Assembly: GCA_026393855.1 (NCBI GenBank)
Contig: JAPKZJ010000057.1
Location: 1-36,970 of the forward strand
Source of the DNA: Candidatus Aminicenantes bacterium
GTDB taxonomy: Bacteria > Acidobacteriota > Aminicenantia > Aminicenantales > UBA4085
Direction: 5' to 3'
DNA length: 36,970 nt
The first letter of the stretch is position 1. Each line of letters begins with the position of its first letter. The notes beneath the pieces were generated by a model, which saw only the letters and a program-made list of their open reading frames with translations, was not told the origin of the DNA and did not search any database. This document shows positions 8,283-35,584 of this stretch, piece after piece. The translations under genes and the position numbers were made by a program.

Positions 8283-9707
8283 TTAGTCGGACTTCGGCCC
8301 GGCCTCGTCGTCCGGCTCGGGCGTCTCGCCGACGCCGGCCGTGATCTTGATGCCGTATTGCTCCAGCTTTTTGTAGAGATTCGAGCGGGGCGTGTCGATC
8401 TCCCGGGCCGTCAGCGAAATATTCCAGCCGCTGCTCTCGAGCTTGGCCAGGATGAATTCCTTCTCGGCTTGGTCGCGGAAATCTTTGAGCGTCTTGATCT
8501 TGTCGGGCTCCGGCATGAGCAGGGCGTGGCCGCCGCGGATCGCTTCCGGCAAGTCCTTGCGCTCAATGACGTCCTTGTCGACCATGATCAGCAGCCGTTC
8601 CACGACATTTCGCAGCTCCCGGATGTTGCCTTTCCAGGGCGCCTTGGTCATCGTCTCCAGGGCTTCGGAGTTGAAGGACTTGGCCCGAAAATTGTTCTCG
8701 TCGGCGAACTGCCGGCTGAAATAATCGACCAGGATCGGGATGTCCTCACGCTTCTCCCGCAGGGCCGGTGAGTAGAGCGGCACGACATTCAGCCGGAAGT
8801 AGAGATCGTCCCGGAAATTTCCCTTCTCGATCTCCTTCCGGAGGTCCTTGTTGGTGGCGGCGATGACCCGAACGTCGACCCTGCTGATCTTGCTCGATCC
8901 GACTTTCTGGACTTCGCCCTCCTCCAGCACCCGGAGGACCTTGGACTGGGTTTTCAGGCTCATGTCGCCGATCTCGTCCAAGAAGATCGTGCCGCCGTCG
9001 GCCTGCTCGAACTTGCCCGTTTTGCGCTCGGTGGCCCCGGTGAAGGAGCCCTTTTCGTGGCCGAAGAGCTCCGATTCGATCAGCTCCTCGGGGATGGCGG
9101 CGCAGTTGACCTGGACGAAGGGCTCCTTGGCCCGCAGGCTCTGGGCGTGGACGGCCCGGGCGATGAGCTCTTTGCCCGTCCCGCTCTCGCCGTGGACGAG
9201 AACCGTGGCGTTGGTCGGCGCGGCGGACTGGATCTCCTTCCACAGCTTCTTCATCAGGGGATGGCTGCCGATGAGCTCGTAGCGCTTCTCGGCCTTGCGC
9301 CGCAGGTCGACGTTCTCGCGGGCCAGCGAGTTCTGGGTCAGGGCATTGCGGATGCTCAGAAGAACCCGGTCGCGATGGAGGGGCTTCTCCAGGAACTCGA
9401 AAGCCCCCGATTTGGTGGCCTCCACGGCCGTATGGATCGTGCCCTGACCCGAGATCATAATGACCTCGGGCGAGGTGGGTCGAGCCTTGATGTCCTTGAG
9501 GATGTCCAAGCCGTCACGCCCCGGCATCTTGATGTCGAGCAGGACGATGTCGATGCCCACGGACTCGTCGAGCTTCTGCAGTCCTTCCTCGCCATCGCCC
9601 GCCTCCAGGAACACGAAGCCCTCGTATTCCAGGATCATCTTCAGGGATTTGCGGATGTTCTCCTCGTCGTCGATGACGAGGATGCGGGCTTTGCGCTCGG
9701 GTTTCAT
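8283..9707 (-). CDS. NtrC-family sigma54-dependent response regulator
   Basis: A 474-residue transcription activator for sigma54 RNA polymerase. Its receiver domain is at residues ~8-120, with acidic pocket IDDEEN and phospho-acceptor Asp58 (VLLDIKMPG). The AAA+ domain spans ~145-380, with Walker A GESGTGKE, the sigma54-contact loop GSFTGA (usually GAFTGA) and Walker B GGTIFLDEIGD. A Fis-type helix-turn-helix sits at the C-terminus (NISLTAREIDTPRSNLYKKL). The ATG at 9707 has GGGAGG ~10 bp upstream; a 23-residue upstream extension lacks a ribosome site and crosses a TACAAT -10 element (9738-9733). No histidine kinase is adjacent. A -24/-12 promoter lies about 120 bp away before the divergent M16 genes, a likely target. 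Confidence 0.94.
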   Translation of the reverse strand: MKPERKARILVIDDEENIRKSLKMILEYEGFVFLEAGDGEEGLQKLDESVGIDIVLLDIKMPGRDGLDILKDIKARPTSPEVIMISGQGTIHTAVEATKSGAFEFLEKPLHRDRVLLSIRNALTQNSLARENVDLRRKAEKRYELIGSHPLMKKLWKEIQSAAPTNATVLVHGESGTGKELIARAVHAQSLRAKEPFVQVNCAAIPEELIESELFGHEKGSFTGATERKTGKFEQADGGTIFLDEIGDMSLKTQSKVLRVLEEGEVQKVGSSKISRVDVRVIAATNKDLRKEIEKGNFRDDLYFRLNVVPLYSPALREKREDIPILVDYFSRQFADENNFRAKSFNSEALETMTKAPWKGNIRELRNVVERLLIMVDKDVIERKDLPEAIRGGHALLMPEPDKIKTLKDFRDQAEKEFILAKLESSGWNISLTAREIDTPRSNLYKKLEQYGIKITAGVGETPEPDDEAGPKSD

Positions 9708-9830
9708 CGGAATCGGCCTCCCAGAGTGACCGATTGTAGCACAGCCGGCCGCCGGCCCAAAAAGGCGCCGCGTCAAGAGTCTTTACACAGGGCGGCCGGG
9801 CCGAGGGGGATTTCCCCTGGTTGCCGGGGC

Positions 9831-9847
9831 TGGCATAATTATTGCTT
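9831..9847 (+). promoter_or_regulatory. Predicted sigma54 (-24/-12) promoter of the M16 peptidase pair
   Basis: TGGCAT (9831-9836), 5 bp, then TTGCTT (9842-9847) matches the RpoN consensus TGGCAC-N5-TTGC[AT] with one mismatch and exact GG-N10-GC spacing. It lies about 50 bp before the first M16 start and next to a gene for a sigma54 activator. I see no equally good TTGACA/TATAAT pair in this gap on the plus strand. Upstream is a G/C inverted repeat (GGGGG at 9805, CCCC at 9814), but it is closer than usual activator sites. Confidence 0.65.
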
Positions 9848-9895
9848 CTCAACGATCCGTGGAGCCGCTAAAATAGTGAGCGCATGGGAGAAGGG

Positions 9896-11275
9896 ATGAA
9901 AAGGCCTCGATTCAAAGGGCGGCGGCTCGGCCGGACAGCCGCAGGGCTCCTGATCCTGTTCCTGACCGCCCCGGCTGTCCGTTCCCAGGCGGCGGCGGCC
10001 AAAGACCGCGCCTTCACCCTCGACAACGGCTTGCGGGTGATCCTCCTCGAGCGGCGCACGCTCCCGCTGATCAACATCGTCGCCGCCGTGGGCGCCGGGA
10101 CTAAGGACGAGACCGACGCCGCAAGCGGAGTCACCCATCTCCTCGAGCATGTCATCCTCTTCCGCGGCACCGAGGTCCGCAGCGGCAGCGAAGTCGCCGC
10201 CGATATCCGCCGCCACGGGGCCTATTTCAACGCCCACACCGGTCCGGACATCGCCACGTTCGAGCTCACTTCGCCGGTCGAGTACGCGGATTTCGCCCTG
10301 CGGAACCAGAAAGAGATTCTATTCAACCTCAAGATTTCGGCGCCGGAGCTCGAGTCGGAGAAGGAGGTCATTCTGGAGGAGATCCGCCAGATCGAAGACG
10401 ATCCTTTCCGAATCGCAAGCGCCCTCATCTATCAGAACCTGTTTCCGGGCCATCCCTACGCCAATCCGGTCTATGGCCGCGCCGACGTCCTGAGAGCCCT
10501 GACGGCCGGAGATGTCGAGAATTTCTACCGGCGATTTTTCGTCCCGGCTAACACCGCCCTGGCCGTGGTCGGCGATTTCGGACTGGACGAGATGGAAGCC
10601 AAGGTTCGGGAGGTCTTCGGTTCCCTGCCTCGGTCCGATTTCAAGCCCGCTCCCCTTGCCGCTCCGGCTCCTCTGCCCAAAACCGTCGAGATCCACCTGG
10701 AGCGCGATGTCGAAGAGGGATATCTCGTGATCGGGGCGGCCGGGCCCGACTACAACAACCCCGACCAATTCGCTTCGGACGTCTTGACGGAAGCCCTGGG
10801 CCACGGCTTGAGCCCCAAGCTGGTCCAGGCCTTACGGGGCGGCCGCCGCGATCTGGTCAACTCGGTCTCCATGAACTACATCGCCCTTAAGCGGGCCGGC
10901 GCATTTCTTGTCTACGCGGCCCTCGATCCCAAGAACATGGACGCGGCCAAGAAGGAGGCTCTGGCCTACCTGCGGCAAGTCCGAAATGAGAGCTTCTCCA
11001 AGTCCGAATTCCAAGGCGAGGAGAAGGCGTACGCCTACGAGCATCTGGAAGGGGCCCGCAACGAGCTGCGCATTTCCGTCCAGAAGGCCTGGGAGAGCGG
11101 CCTTGGGTTGGCCCAATCCCTGGCCATGCACATGATGCTGAACGAGACCCCGTCCCGAATCGATTACCTGGAGCGAATCGCCCAAGTTACGCCTTCCGAC
11201 CTGCGCCGGATCGGAGCCCGCTATCTGAGCCGGGCCGAATACGTCGTGGTGACCGTCCAACCGAGGGTGAAATGA
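9896..11275 (+). CDS. Secreted M16 family zinc peptidase, catalytic subunit
   Basis: A 459-residue pitrilysin/processing-peptidase-type protein with an N-terminal signal or anchor (residues ~10-32, TAAGLLILFLTAPAVRSQA). The inverted zinc motif HxxEH is intact as His81-Leu-Leu-Glu84-His85, and the third ligand is Glu161 in VILEEIRQIEDDP, 77 residues later as expected. The C-terminal half is the second M16 domain. The chosen ATG 9896 has GGGAG 5 bp upstream; ATG 9884 in the same frame overlaps that site. The downstream gene overlaps by 4 bp and encodes a non-catalytic partner, so the product probably works as a heterodimer degrading peptides in the periplasm. Confidence 0.9.
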   Translation: MKRPRFKGRRLGRTAAGLLILFLTAPAVRSQAAAAKDRAFTLDNGLRVILLERRTLPLINIVAAVGAGTKDETDAASGVTHLLEHVILFRGTEVRSGSEVAADIRRHGAYFNAHTGPDIATFELTSPVEYADFALRNQKEILFNLKISAPELESEKEVILEEIRQIEDDPFRIASALIYQNLFPGHPYANPVYGRADVLRALTAGDVENFYRRFFVPANTALAVVGDFGLDEMEAKVREVFGSLPRSDFKPAPLAAPAPLPKTVEIHLERDVEEGYLVIGAAGPDYNNPDQFASDVLTEALGHGLSPKLVQALRGGRRDLVNSVSMNYIALKRAGAFLVYAALDPKNMDAAKKEALAYLRQVRNESFSKSEFQGEEKAYAYEHLEGARNELRISVQKAWESGLGLAQSLAMHMMLNETPSRIDYLERIAQVTPSDLRRIGARYLSRAEYVVVTVQPRVK

Positions 11276-12576
11276 CCGCTCCTGCCCGCCGTCTTCCCCA
11301 TCGGATCGCTCTGATCGCAGCGGTTCTGCTCGGCGCGGTGCTCCTGGCCGCGGGCCCGGAGCTGCAGGAACGCTTCCGGCTCGACAACGGCATGACCGTT
11401 GTTTATCGGCACGACCCCGCCTCCGAAGTGACCGTCCTCCTGATCGGGATCGGCGGTGGGCAATCGGCGGAGCCGGTGGACAAGGCCGGGCTGGCCTTCC
11501 TCACGTCCCGGCTGGCCATCGACATTCCCGATCAAAGCAAGGCCCAGGATTTCGTCGTCAAAGCCCTCCACTCCAGCCTGAACGTCCGCGGCGACTTCGC
11601 CGTCATCCAGCTCGAATGCTTGAGCGAGTTCTTCGACGAGGTGGCGGCGGCGTTCGTCCGCATCTTGGCCGATCCCCTATTCACGGGAGTCCGCATCGAA
11701 CGGATCAAGGAATTCATGGCTCACCAGCGCCGGCTCGAGGCTGACGACGCGGGCAACGCGGGCCGGTTGGCCCAGGCAGAGGCGTTCTTCGCCGGGACCG
11801 GATACGGCCGTTCGATCTACGGCTCGGAGGCGTCGCTTGCCGCGATCAAAGCCAAGGACATCAAGGACTTCTATGATCGTCTGTTCATCGCCGGGAATAT
11901 CACTCTTACGGTCGTCACGGATCTCGACCGAGAACGTCTGGCCGCGATGCTCAAGAAGCATTTCGGAGGCTTCCGGAAGTCGGCGACGGCGCCAGCGATC
12001 CCCTCCCTCGCTTCGGCCTCGCCGGCCGAACCTTCGCGCCAGATGGAGAAAGAAGCGCTGCAAACCTATGTTTCGGCCGCTTACCCTCTGCCGGCGGCCG
12101 GCCGCCGCAATTATGTCCTGGATTCCCTGTTGGAGAACGCTCTTGGCCGCGGACCCGGGACACGGCTTTGGAGCCTGCGGTCGGAACAGAAGCTGGCCTA
12201 CAACGTGGCGGCCTCGGCCCTCCAGATGAAACAGGGCGGACTTTTCGAAGCCTTCCTGGAAACCGATCCATCGAAGACGGCGCAGGCCCGAACCGCCTTG
12301 GGCGCGCTGCTGGCCGAAGTCCACCACACCGGCCTCTCGGCCGAGGAGCTCGACGTGGCCAAGGCGGGGCTCAAATCGCTCTTCCTGCGCGGCAACGAGA
12401 CGAAGATCTCCCGGGCCTCTACCCTGGCGTCATTCGAAGCGCTGGGTCTGGACGCTTCTTTTTTTGAAGCCTTCGCCAAAGAAGTCGATGCCGTGACGCT
12501 CGACGAGATGAACGCCCATATTCGGAGCGTCCTCGACCCGGCCAAGGCTCATTGGGTGCTGGTCGGGCCGAAGTAA
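11272..12576 (+). CDS. M16 family protein lacking the zinc site (partner subunit)
   Basis: A 434-residue M16-like protein with a signal peptide (IALIAAVLLGAVLLAAG). It retains the family fold: FRLDNGMTVVYRHDP at the N-terminus, and ALGRGPGTRLWSLRSEQKLAYNV in the second half, the usual R...LAY substrate-holding region. Where HxxEH should be, the sequence reads AGLAFLTSRL, so no zinc can bind. Paired catalytic and inactive subunits are the rule for mitochondrial processing peptidase and many bacterial M16B pairs. The ATGA overlap with the catalytic gene (11272-11275) implies coupled translation and equal amounts. The unit ends before the separate promoter at 12604. Confidence 0.88.
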   Translation: MTAPARRLPHRIALIAAVLLGAVLLAAGPELQERFRLDNGMTVVYRHDPASEVTVLLIGIGGGQSAEPVDKAGLAFLTSRLAIDIPDQSKAQDFVVKALHSSLNVRGDFAVIQLECLSEFFDEVAAAFVRILADPLFTGVRIERIKEFMAHQRRLEADDAGNAGRLAQAEAFFAGTGYGRSIYGSEASLAAIKAKDIKDFYDRLFIAGNITLTVVTDLDRERLAAMLKKHFGGFRKSATAPAIPSLASASPAEPSRQMEKEALQTYVSAAYPLPAAGRRNYVLDSLLENALGRGPGTRLWSLRSEQKLAYNVAASALQMKQGGLFEAFLETDPSKTAQARTALGALLAEVHHTGLSAEELDVAKAGLKSLFLRGNETKISRASTLASFEALGLDASFFEAFAKEVDAVTLDEMNAHIRSVLDPAKAHWVLVGPK

Positions 12577-23144: not shown

Positions 23145-24014
23145 TCAAGCGTAAAATTCCTTGACCCGCATCAAAGTGTCGAATCCCTCCAGCCCCAGGA
23201 TGTCCGTCAGACAGGCCAGGGCGGGATGGCCATCCGGCAGGAGCTCATACTTGCGGGCCGTCGAGCCGATAATTGTGTCCAAGCCCCTAGGCATGGCCAG
23301 CGTCAGGAACGCGCTTTCCAGAGGCCCTTTGACGGGAGAGCCGTCGGCCCGCTTGGAAGGCAGCATGACGGTGAAGTTGCTGAGGCCCACCGACATATGG
23401 ACTCCGGCCAGGTCGGGGTCGGCCTGGATAAGGGCCAGCGATTCCAGGACCCGGCGCAGGTGTCCCTCGCAGTCGCTGCCGATGGGCGCGATGCCGGGGT
23501 CGATGACGGCCTGATCGTTCCGGAATCCGGGGATTCTCGCCTTGGCCTCGGCCATCAACCGGCGGGCGGTGCGATGGGTCTCCTCGGCCGTGCGGTTGGG
23601 CGCCGAATCGCCGCCCTCCAGTCGCTCCGAGGACATCAGGATCGGCCGGAAGGGACGGATCTTGTGGAGATCGAACATCCAGAGCCGTAGGGGCGAGATC
23701 GAGTTCAGGATCGGCTCCCGCCCGCCGGTCCGCGAGGGATCATAGGCGCGAAGCCCGGCCTCGGCCAAGGCCGGGTCCGGCGTATCGATCGAGAGGGGCT
23801 TGGCTGAGGCCCGCTGAATGGTCGCCACCAGCTCGGCCATGAATTCGGGCGAGCGCGCCCCGACGTTGACGTCGAGGTAGGCCGCGCCTTTCTCGTCCTG
23901 GGTCCGGGCCAGCTCGACCAAGCCGGGGATATCACCCGCTTCGAAGAGCCTCTTAGTCGAGGGGACGGAATCGTTGATGGATTCGCCGATGATCGTCAAT
24001 CCGGGAATAGCCAT
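23145..24014 (-). CDS. Pterin-binding methyltransferase (AcsE/MtrH-like methyltetrahydrofolate:corrinoid methyltransferase)
   Basis: A 289-residue DHPS-fold TIM barrel. IIGESINDSV, GAAYLDVNVGA (Asp-x-Asn for pterin), LSIDTPDP, ILNSISP, DPGIAPIG and GLSNFTVMLP match in order the pterin-binding strands of AcsE and MetH. The end, ESAFLTLAMPRGLDTIIG, corresponds to the AcsE stretch FLAMAMACGLDAAI. Real dihydropteroate synthase lacks this C-terminal pattern, so a methyl transfer from methyl-tetrahydrofolate to a corrinoid is the likely role. No corrinoid protein gene is in the window. The stop TGA at 23147-23145 falls directly before the MetF-like gene, forming a two-gene C1 unit. The start is ATG 24014 with AAAGG close upstream and no strong promoter. 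Confidence 0.82.
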   Translation of the reverse strand: MAIPGLTIIGESINDSVPSTKRLFEAGDIPGLVELARTQDEKGAAYLDVNVGARSPEFMAELVATIQRASAKPLSIDTPDPALAEAGLRAYDPSRTGGREPILNSISPLRLWMFDLHKIRPFRPILMSSERLEGGDSAPNRTAEETHRTARRLMAEAKARIPGFRNDQAVIDPGIAPIGSDCEGHLRRVLESLALIQADPDLAGVHMSVGLSNFTVMLPSKRADGSPVKGPLESAFLTLAMPRGLDTIIGSTARKYELLPDGHPALACLTDILGLEGFDTLMRVKEFYA

Positions 24015-34012: not shown

Positions 34013-35584
34013 TCAATCGTCGGAAGGCCCGATCGGGCCCGGCCCTTTGTATTTAAGCGCGACCATGGTGATGTCGTCCGAGGGCGGGTTTTCCCGGACG
34101 AAGGCCTTGACGGCGCCGCGGGCCCGGTGGACGAGCGCTTCCGCATCCAGGGCCGTCGCCCCGGCCAAGCCTTCAATCAAGCGGGCCTCGGAGAACAATC
34201 GATCCGACGCGTCCATCGCCTCGGTCACGCCGTCGGTGTAGAGGAAGACGGTTTCGCCCGGCCGCAGGACCCTACTTGTGGTCCGGAAGGCATCGCTCTC
34301 GAACGCGCCCAGGATCGTCCCCGTCGGCCCTTCGAGGGGCACGAATCCGGCCGGGCCGGCCGAGACAAGCGGGGCCGGGTGGCCGCCGTTGGCGTATTGG
34401 AGCTCCCCGGTCTTGACGTCCAGGACAAGCAGATAGACGGTGACGAACATCAGGGTCTCGTTGTCGGGGATCAGGGTCCGGTTGACCCGGGCCAGAATTT
34501 CGGCCGGCAGCAGTCCGCGCAGGGCCTCGGTCTTGAGCAGGGTCTTGCAGATGGCCATGAACAGGGCCGCCGGGACGCCCTTGCCGGACACGTCGCCGAC
34601 CAGGACGCAGAGCTTCCGATCGTCGATGAGAAAGAAATCAAAGAAATCCCCGCCGACCTCCTTGGCCGGCTCCATCACCGCGTAGATGTCGAACTCGGTC
34701 CGGTCGGGAAACGGCGGAAAGATCCGCGGCAGCATGCTGGCCTGGATGTCGCGGGCAATCCGCAGCTCGCTTTGGATCCTCTCCTTGGCCTCGGTCTCGG
34801 CCCTCAGGTTCTCGATGAAGCGCTTGATGCACAGGTGGACGAGCTGGAAGGCCAGGGCCGAGTCCCGGTTGAAGAGCCGGATGACGTCGTCCTTGTCGAT
34901 CGTGTACGCCTCGAGGTCCTCTGCGCAGACGGCCGAGGCCGTGCGGGCGTGGAACGGCGAGAGGATGCCCATCTCGCCGATGACCTCCCCTTCTTTGACC
35001 ACCTTATCGATCTCGATGAGCTTGAGCGAGCCGCGGGCGACATAGAACATCTTGTCGGCCCGGTCCCCCGCCTTGAACAGGACGTCGCCCTTCTTGTACG
35101 TCTCCCGGTTCATCGAGGCCAGGGGAAATCGTAGATCGTCGTCGGCCGCCGCGGCGGTTCGGGCGTTCGCGGGCTTGTCCGGCCCGAGGCGGAGGCGAAG
35201 GATGTTCTTGTCGCTCTCCCGCCGGTAGTCCACCTCGTCCACCATGTTCAAAAGGAAAAAGACGCCGAGCCCGCCGATCTTGCGATCCTCCAAACCGCTC
35301 CGCAGGTCCGGAGGCGGAACGGACCGGACGTCGAAGGGCACCCCCGTGTCCTCGATCTCGAGGATGGAATTCCCGGGCTCAGGGCCGGATTCCCAGATCA
35401 ATTCGATGTCTCCGGGGATGCCGATGTACGCGTGGCGGATGATATTGACGACGGCTTCCTCGACGGCCAGCTGGACCTCCCCCGTCCGGAGGGACGAATA
35501 GCCCGCCGCGGCCGAGCGGGCCGCGACGAAGGCCAGGAAGGGATTGAGGGACTCGAGCCGGGCGGGCAGGCGGAGGCGGGGCAA
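34013..35584 (-). CDS. Fusion of RsbW-like ATPase, cyclic-nucleotide-binding domain and SpoIIE phosphatase
   Basis: A 523-residue cytoplasmic regulator. Residues ~10-135 are a GHKL/HATPase_c domain of the anti-sigma kinase type (AVEEAVVNIIRHAY with Asn47; DTGVPFD; GGLGVFFL). Residues ~155-260 are a cNMP-binding domain with the phosphate cassette GEVIGEMGIL...ARTAS (Glu204, Arg214). A helical linker (ETEAKERIQSELRIARDIQASMLP) leads to the PP2C/SpoIIE domain, with metal Asp313 (GGDFFDFF), Asp331 (VGDVSGKG), NGGHPAPL, LYTDGVTEAMD and SDDITM. Kinase and phosphatase in one chain could set the phosphorylation of the STAS protein encoded 22 bp upstream. The start is TTG 35584 with GGAG ~8 bp before; no ATG serves. 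It is convergent with prsW. Confidence 0.9.
   Translation of the reverse strand: MPRLRLPARLESLNPFLAFVAARSAAAGYSSLRTGEVQLAVEEAVVNIIRHAYIGIPGDIELIWESGPEPGNSILEIEDTGVPFDVRSVPPPDLRSGLEDRKIGGLGVFFLLNMVDEVDYRRESDKNILRLRLGPDKPANARTAAAADDDLRFPLASMNRETYKKGDVLFKAGDRADKMFYVARGSLKLIEIDKVVKEGEVIGEMGILSPFHARTASAVCAEDLEAYTIDKDDVIRLFNRDSALAFQLVHLCIKRFIENLRAETEAKERIQSELRIARDIQASMLPRIFPPFPDRTEFDIYAVMEPAKEVGGDFFDFFLIDDRKLCVLVGDVSGKGVPAALFMAICKTLLKTEALRGLLPAEILARVNRTLIPDNETLMFVTVYLLVLDVKTGELQYANGGHPAPLVSAGPAGFVPLEGPTGTILGAFESDAFRTTSRVLRPGETVFLYTDGVTEAMDASDRLFSEARLIEGLAGATALDAEALVHRARGAVKAFVRENPPSDDITMVALKYKGPGPIGPSDD

Follow-up and report, generated by a model that had tools for sequence, protein, structure and literature searches.

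Does sigma54 control a pair of M16 peptidase genes, and if so through which activator? The question is raised by a promoter-like element in a 36,970-nucleotide stretch of DNA (hereafter the window, meaning the whole stretch that was analysed). A first-pass annotation had credited this element with exact −24/−12 geometry, and the letters bear this out: TGGCAT (9831-9836), AATTA (9837-9841) and TTGCTT (9842-9847) follow one another on the plus strand, and exactly 10 bases separate the GG at 9832-9833 from the GC at 9844-9845, which gives the GG-N10-GC arrangement and a predicted transcript start near 9857. As an explanation of the locus as a whole, we favour, with moderate confidence, a working sigma54 promoter of an M16B operon that belongs to an order-wide regulon, with a distantly encoded NtrC-type regulator, P0004, as its most likely activator. 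The features of the locus are collected in Table 1.

Table 1. Positions of genes and predicted regulatory elements at the M16 locus of the window.
Feature	Coordinates	Strand	Evidence or remark
M16 active-type subunit P0001, HLLEH at residue 85	9884..11275	+	Pfam M16, motif, signal peptide
M16 inactive-type partner P0002, RSEQKLAY (R-N6-Y) at 303	11272..12576	+	Pfam M16, motif
Sigma54 −24/−12 promoter TGGCATAATTATTGCTT	9831..9847	+	Exact match; kept in 9/10 same-family loci
Candidate sigma70-type promoter TTCTCA-N17-TAAAAT	9846..9874	+	9 of 12 consensus
Candidate activator site (UAS) GTCAAGAGTCTTTAC, GTNAA-N5-TTNAC palindrome	9772..9786	+	Centre 52 bp upstream of −24 T
Orphan NtrC-type regulator P0003: receiver, AAA+ with GSFTGA, Fis-type HTH	8283..9707	-	
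Extended −10-like element of P0003, TGTGCTACAAT	9733..9743	-	In 24/28 intergenic regions

Within the window, TGGCA-N6-TTGCW has one match against 0.06 expected from shuffling. With one mismatch allowed there are two matches against 1.96 expected, and since this is the chance level, the weight rests on the exact match only. The genome encodes rpoN (PF04552, E 1.8e-56), the presence of which the first-pass annotation had wanted confirmed, and it holds 22 sites of the form TGGCAY-N5-TTGCW compared with two for a reversed control pattern. When this search was extended to 59 genomes, including the window's own, all 59 showed an excess, with 10-54 sites each against 0-5 control matches.

The two genes behind the promoter share a 4-base overlap, and both products have signal-like N-termini. 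P0001 carries the HxxEH motif together with a downstream E at +76/77; its partner P0002 lacks HxxEH and has instead the R/Y motif. The start codon of P0001 is probably the ATG at 9896 rather than the first ATG of the open reading frame at 9884, because the former is preceded by GGAGAAGG and opens the signal peptide. Both subunits match the active and the inactive chains of the Sphingomonas M16B heterodimer in PDB entry 3amj. They resemble that type in having HxxEH in one subunit and the R/Y motif in the other, both assigned to M16 by Pfam; they differ from it in standing behind a sigma54 promoter, and the similarity is remote. On these features, P0001 and P0002 are predicted to form an exported M16B heterodimer of periplasmic type, encoded by a two-gene operon.

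Conservation of the locus adds to the case for the promoter. The named relatives of the M16 protein come almost entirely from one group, with 20 of 23 loci in Candidatus Aminicenantes MAGs, one in an Acidobacteria MAG and two in distant Armatimonadetes MAGs. We scored sigma54 sites in the P0003-M16 intergenic regions with a hand-weighted consensus at a threshold of 13; as the series L024-L076 includes duplicates of the same genomes, the count was restricted to distinct upstream sequences. At 28 distinct loci in which P0003 is divergent from and adjoins the M16 gene, a strong site was found on the M16 strand in 14 and on the other strand in none, and 23 further P0003-M16 loci added two sites, again both on the M16 strand. 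Of all 51 adjacent loci together, 16 therefore carry the site on the M16 strand, while not one has it on the opposite strand; in the window's own family, nine of ten loci have it before the M16 gene. The possibility that the motif arose by chance in a GC-rich genome, in favour of which the frequency of one-mismatch matches in the window could be cited, was rejected on the excess of sites in the genome, the corresponding excess in its relatives and the conservation of the locus; with the strand bias, and with a palindrome placed at a phased distance upstream (see below), we regard it as very improbable. The proposal of the first-pass annotation that an M16B heterodimer is under sigma54 control is therefore borne out as a prediction, with promoter, rpoN and conservation all in good agreement, and we consider it well supported at the level of sequence.

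The promoter may not act alone. TANAAT is found at 9869-9874 in the window, and a script recovered it 20-25 nt downstream of the −12 GC at nine of the ten same-family loci; in the tenth, L030, it was recognised by eye, and here it is kept even though the −24 GG, and with it the sigma54 site, has been lost. It is likely, judging from these loci, that a basal sigma70 promoter lies beside an inducible sigma54 promoter of the M16 pair. A stronger version would have the pair transcribed mainly from a sigma70-type promoter, either the element in Table 1 or an extended −10, TGGCATAAT, with sigma54 contributing little or under inducing conditions only. The family-wide persistence of TANAAT, including in L030, and the nine-of-twelve consensus match in the window are what this version would predict, but no sigma70 model requires the −24 GG that nine of the ten loci keep, the palindrome and its phasing fit sigma54 activation only, and the −35 at 17 nt shows little conservation among the family loci. 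We accordingly rate a mainly sigma70-driven operon as improbable, and retain sigma54 as the predicted controlling factor.

The gene pairing itself reaches beyond the sigma54 promoter. P0003 and M16 are divergent in all 68 genomes in which both best hits lie on one contig, and are separated by less than 1 kb in 48, by 1-6 kb in 19 and by 11 kb in one. The sigma54 site is nevertheless missing before M16 in 35 of the 51 adjacent loci, which implies that the gene pair predates its sigma54 promoter and is the more widespread of the two. In most genomes of family f5 (among them L058, L059, L062 and L063), a potassium-channel-like gene of ~330 aa, labelled by eye as two-TM plus TrkA-N-like, lies between P0003 and M16, and in the 17 genomes with this arrangement a sigma54 site precedes the channel gene in none. 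In f5 loci, positions −375 to −400 give sigma54-like scores, which fall inside the channel gene and for this reason were not taken as promoters. Given the 35 loci that lack the site and the absence of one before the channel gene in 17 of 17 genomes, M16 is not a core target of the system. In G002, a member of the same genus, P0003 is kept at 87% identity and no close M16 match was found.

A second element in the intergenic region, the palindrome GTNAA-N5-TTNAC, bears on how the promoter might be activated. It was first noticed on visual reading of the sequences between P0003 and M16, and its count there is therefore post hoc: nine of the 28 regions contain it, whereas shuffling gives a mean of 0.05. 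Among spacers of 0-15 tried in the same 28 regions, only spacer 5 gave a signal, and all nine palindromes belong to loci whose sigma54 score is at least 12 (Fisher p = 0.003). Because the element had been found by eye, we carried out a wider test over 99 genomes, combining the palindrome with a sigma54 promoter into a composite site. This recovered 64 sites at gaps of 27-57 (six control matches) and 127 at gaps of 58-88 (seven control matches), for a total of 191 sites against 13 control matches in a genome set that includes the M16 loci where the palindrome was first seen. The distances from palindrome centre to promoter cluster near 39, 49, 59, 69, 80 and 90 bp, with a best period of 10.55 bp. 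At 10.5 bp the phasing statistic R reaches 0.57 compared with a null maximum of 0.21, and as orthologous sites in this collection are not independent, we also drew random subsets of 20 sites, for which R had a median of 0.58, compared with 0.57 at the 99.9% level of the null.

The composite site was present in nine of ten order members sampled in a test across the phylum, and in 188 genomes outside the order there were 22 matches against 10 controls, so that the composite is near background there. Of the 22 sigma54 sites in the window's genome, five have the palindrome (with up to one mismatch) upstream, whereas the same search downstream returned one; the five genes encode an SBP, a DUF5916 protein, a TonB-type receptor, M16 and a protein with an IPKEV stretch. 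The copy in the window has one arm reading GTCAA, where the usual arm is GTAAA. Taken together, these patterns make the palindrome a candidate enhancer that would sit on a constant helix face, some 39-90 bp before the −24 element, and mark the members of a regulon. Two more exact palindromes are present in the window, at 1267-1281 (inside a coding ORF) and 23151-23165, and within the window no exact sigma54 match lies near either.

Which regulator would bind the palindrome is a separate matter. The gene divergent from the M16 pair had been described from its sequence as a full NtrC-type activator with no kinase beside it, and both parts of this description stand: P0003 has the complete domain set (Table 1), and a Pfam scan of 29 window ORFs found no HisKA-type kinase. 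The sole histidine-kinase-like ATPase fold in the scanned ORFs belongs to 34013-35584, which combines SpoIIE phosphatase, HATPase_c_2 and cyclic-nucleotide-binding domains. P0003 falls below the NCBIfam cut-offs for NtrC (426 of 558.6 bits), NtrX (427 of 600) and AtoC (442.5 of 714). Its extended −10-like element was found in 24 of the 28 intergenic regions compared with 0 of 28 for a reversed-text control.

The window's genome has 12 matches to PF00158, 11 of them strong, and one of these regulators, P0004, stands out by its surroundings. It is the third gene of an operon that begins with an SBP_bac_5 gene bearing the palindrome, followed by a HAMP histidine kinase and then by P0004 itself, an NtrC-type regulator with a GAFTDA loop; the operon carries the same palindrome and sigma54 promoter as its predicted targets. 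The same order of binding protein, kinase and regulator is seen in G035, and the binding protein matches peptide-binding proteins. Close matches to P0004 were found in 83 of 99 genomes, and a composite site lies within 6 kb of it in 58 of these 83, while a composite site within 3 kb of P0003 was found in only six of 82. Co-occurrence gives the same picture, with the proviso that the genomes are drafts and absences of P0003 or P0004 will in part be assembly gaps: among P0003-bearing genomes, 69 of the 73 that also have P0004 contain composite sites, against five of the nine that lack it (p = 0.004), whereas among P0004-bearing genomes the corresponding figures are 69 of 73 where P0003 occurs and nine of ten where it does not (p = 0.48).

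On the strength of this co-location and co-occurrence, we favour the distant P0004 as the activator of the M16 promoter, a choice that we judge reasonably likely from the genomic patterns, and P0003 is probably not the activator. The assignment by adjacency that the first-pass annotation had implied was dropped on the same contrast in co-location. The alternative, that P0003 binds the palindrome and drives the M16 pair, the P0004 operon and other targets, is not without merit. Nine of the 28 loci, and G034 as well, have the palindrome in the interval that separates P0003 from M16; the sigma54-contact loop of P0003 is GSFTGA or GAFTGA, its recognition helix at TPRSN is invariant (32/32), and it is divergent from M16 on every one of the 68 shared contigs, with the two genes within 6 kb on 67. 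By comparison, the GAFTDA loop of P0004 is less clean for sigma54 contact; it is, however, invariant in 27 of 27 P0004 relatives, and PMC4641369 lists DVU2106 of Desulfovibrio, an EBP with GAFTDA, together with target operons. Against P0003 stand the composite sites, which gather near P0004, the frequent lack of the palindrome in genomes that have P0003 without P0004, and the fact that P0003 adjoins M16 in many genomes even where the sigma54 site is missing. We consider activation by P0003 unlikely and prefer P0004.

If P0004 is the activator, the operon suggests a course of events. A periplasmic ligand, perhaps peptides, would be captured by the solute-binding protein, upon which the HAMP histidine kinase would phosphorylate P0004; phosphorylated P0004, bound to the palindrome, would then drive sigma54 polymerase. 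The output would comprise the P0004 operon itself and a conserved exported protein, with the M16 pair added in some lineages. The promoter, the palindrome, conservation, phasing and co-location are read directly from the genomes, and from these we infer binding, the identity of the binding regulator, the ligand and the biological purpose. The full picture, an order-wide peptide-sensing sigma54 regulon in which a binding protein, a kinase and a GAFTDA regulator act on exported proteins through strictly phased enhancers only 4-9 turns from the promoter, and into which peptidases are recruited lineage by lineage, is tentative, and we would put it slightly short of an even chance.

Several elements of this system are of known kinds. 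GG-N10-GC, TGGCAY-N5-TTGCW, NtrC-type activators and rpoN are those of classic sigma54 promoters with NtrC-type enhancers, and a palindrome with a 5-bp spacer upstream of the promoter resembles NtrC-type enhancer sites. Unlike in the classic sigma54/NtrC systems, the target here is an exported M16 pair, and the enhancer reads GTNAA-N5-TTNAC and lies close by, helically phased at 39-90 bp upstream of −24. PgtC-PgtB-PgtA is an operon type with a binding protein, a kinase and an NtrC-type regulator, and the P0004 operon is like it in encoding a solute-binding protein, a histidine kinase and an NtrC-type response regulator together; P0004 itself, however, scores 169 bits against a PgtA cut-off of 650, and its binding protein belongs to the peptide-type family SBP_bac_5. 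NtrYX of Rhodobacter sphaeroides (PMC7240162) offers a parallel in that a regulator of the NtrC family controls cell-envelope genes, but the site proposed there is GCA-N9-TGC, and P0003 is below the NtrX cut-off.

Among the results listed for literature searches on sigma54/RpoN in Aminicenantes or Acidobacteria or with M16 peptidases, there was no report of this regulon, and term searches of two sigma54 surveys (PMC12316311 and PMC3162934) found no mention of Acidobacteria or peptidases. Systems of this kind are known; no earlier description of this regulon, of its enhancer or of its members turned up in the literature searched. The analysis would place an M16B peptidase pair under sigma54 control and gives an uncultured order a concrete predicted regulon, with a promoter, an enhancer sequence, a spacing rule and a likely sensor. 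The 191 natural composite sites form a large collection for asking which way a sigma54 enhancer acting at short range has to be turned towards the polymerase, and the locus illustrates that an activator guessed from the neighbouring gene can mislead.

As to membership, we read the genes downstream of 60 of the 64 composite sites in the first set (gaps 27-57); from the second set of 127 (gaps 58-88), 20 loci and the site of the window's genome were read, as was L121, which is a first-set site. Several target labels in relatives were assigned by eye. The commonest enhancer target is one exported family of ~350 residues with an IPKEV-like stretch shortly after the signal sequence, which was noted at L023 (G000:C125) and follows 37 of the 60 first-set sites. 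A profile search with its alignment A1 against solved structures gave no PDB match up to E = 1, and its matches in Pfam are weak only (Y_Y_Y, matched by 11 of 25 members with E no better than 0.00031); as a core target, the family is now a defined object of study. Other composite targets include the SBP_bac_5 binding protein, TonB-type receptors, DUF5916 and further exported proteins.

The window's own genome shows a similar tendency. The first-pass annotation had suggested looking through the genome for peptidase genes close to such a promoter, and the 22 sites instead precede mostly other exported proteins, with no second M16 among them. By a crude hydrophobicity test for signal peptides, 17 of the 18 sites with a downstream gene precede a signal-like N-terminus, compared with 10 of 24 window genes, which agrees with the proposal that sigma54 controls the bacterial exterior (PMC3162934). 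The M16 promoter looks like one member of a larger predicted sigma54 regulon through which uncultured Aminicenantes-type bacteria would control exported proteins. The remaining four of the 22 sites lie inside long ORFs (two) or at contig ends (two). One site precedes a pilin-like N_methyl gene (G000:C14, L008), as in classic PilR-controlled systems. The sites L009 and L012 are near-identical and lie at the ends of contigs C15 and C35, where a repeated gene has probably broken the assembly.
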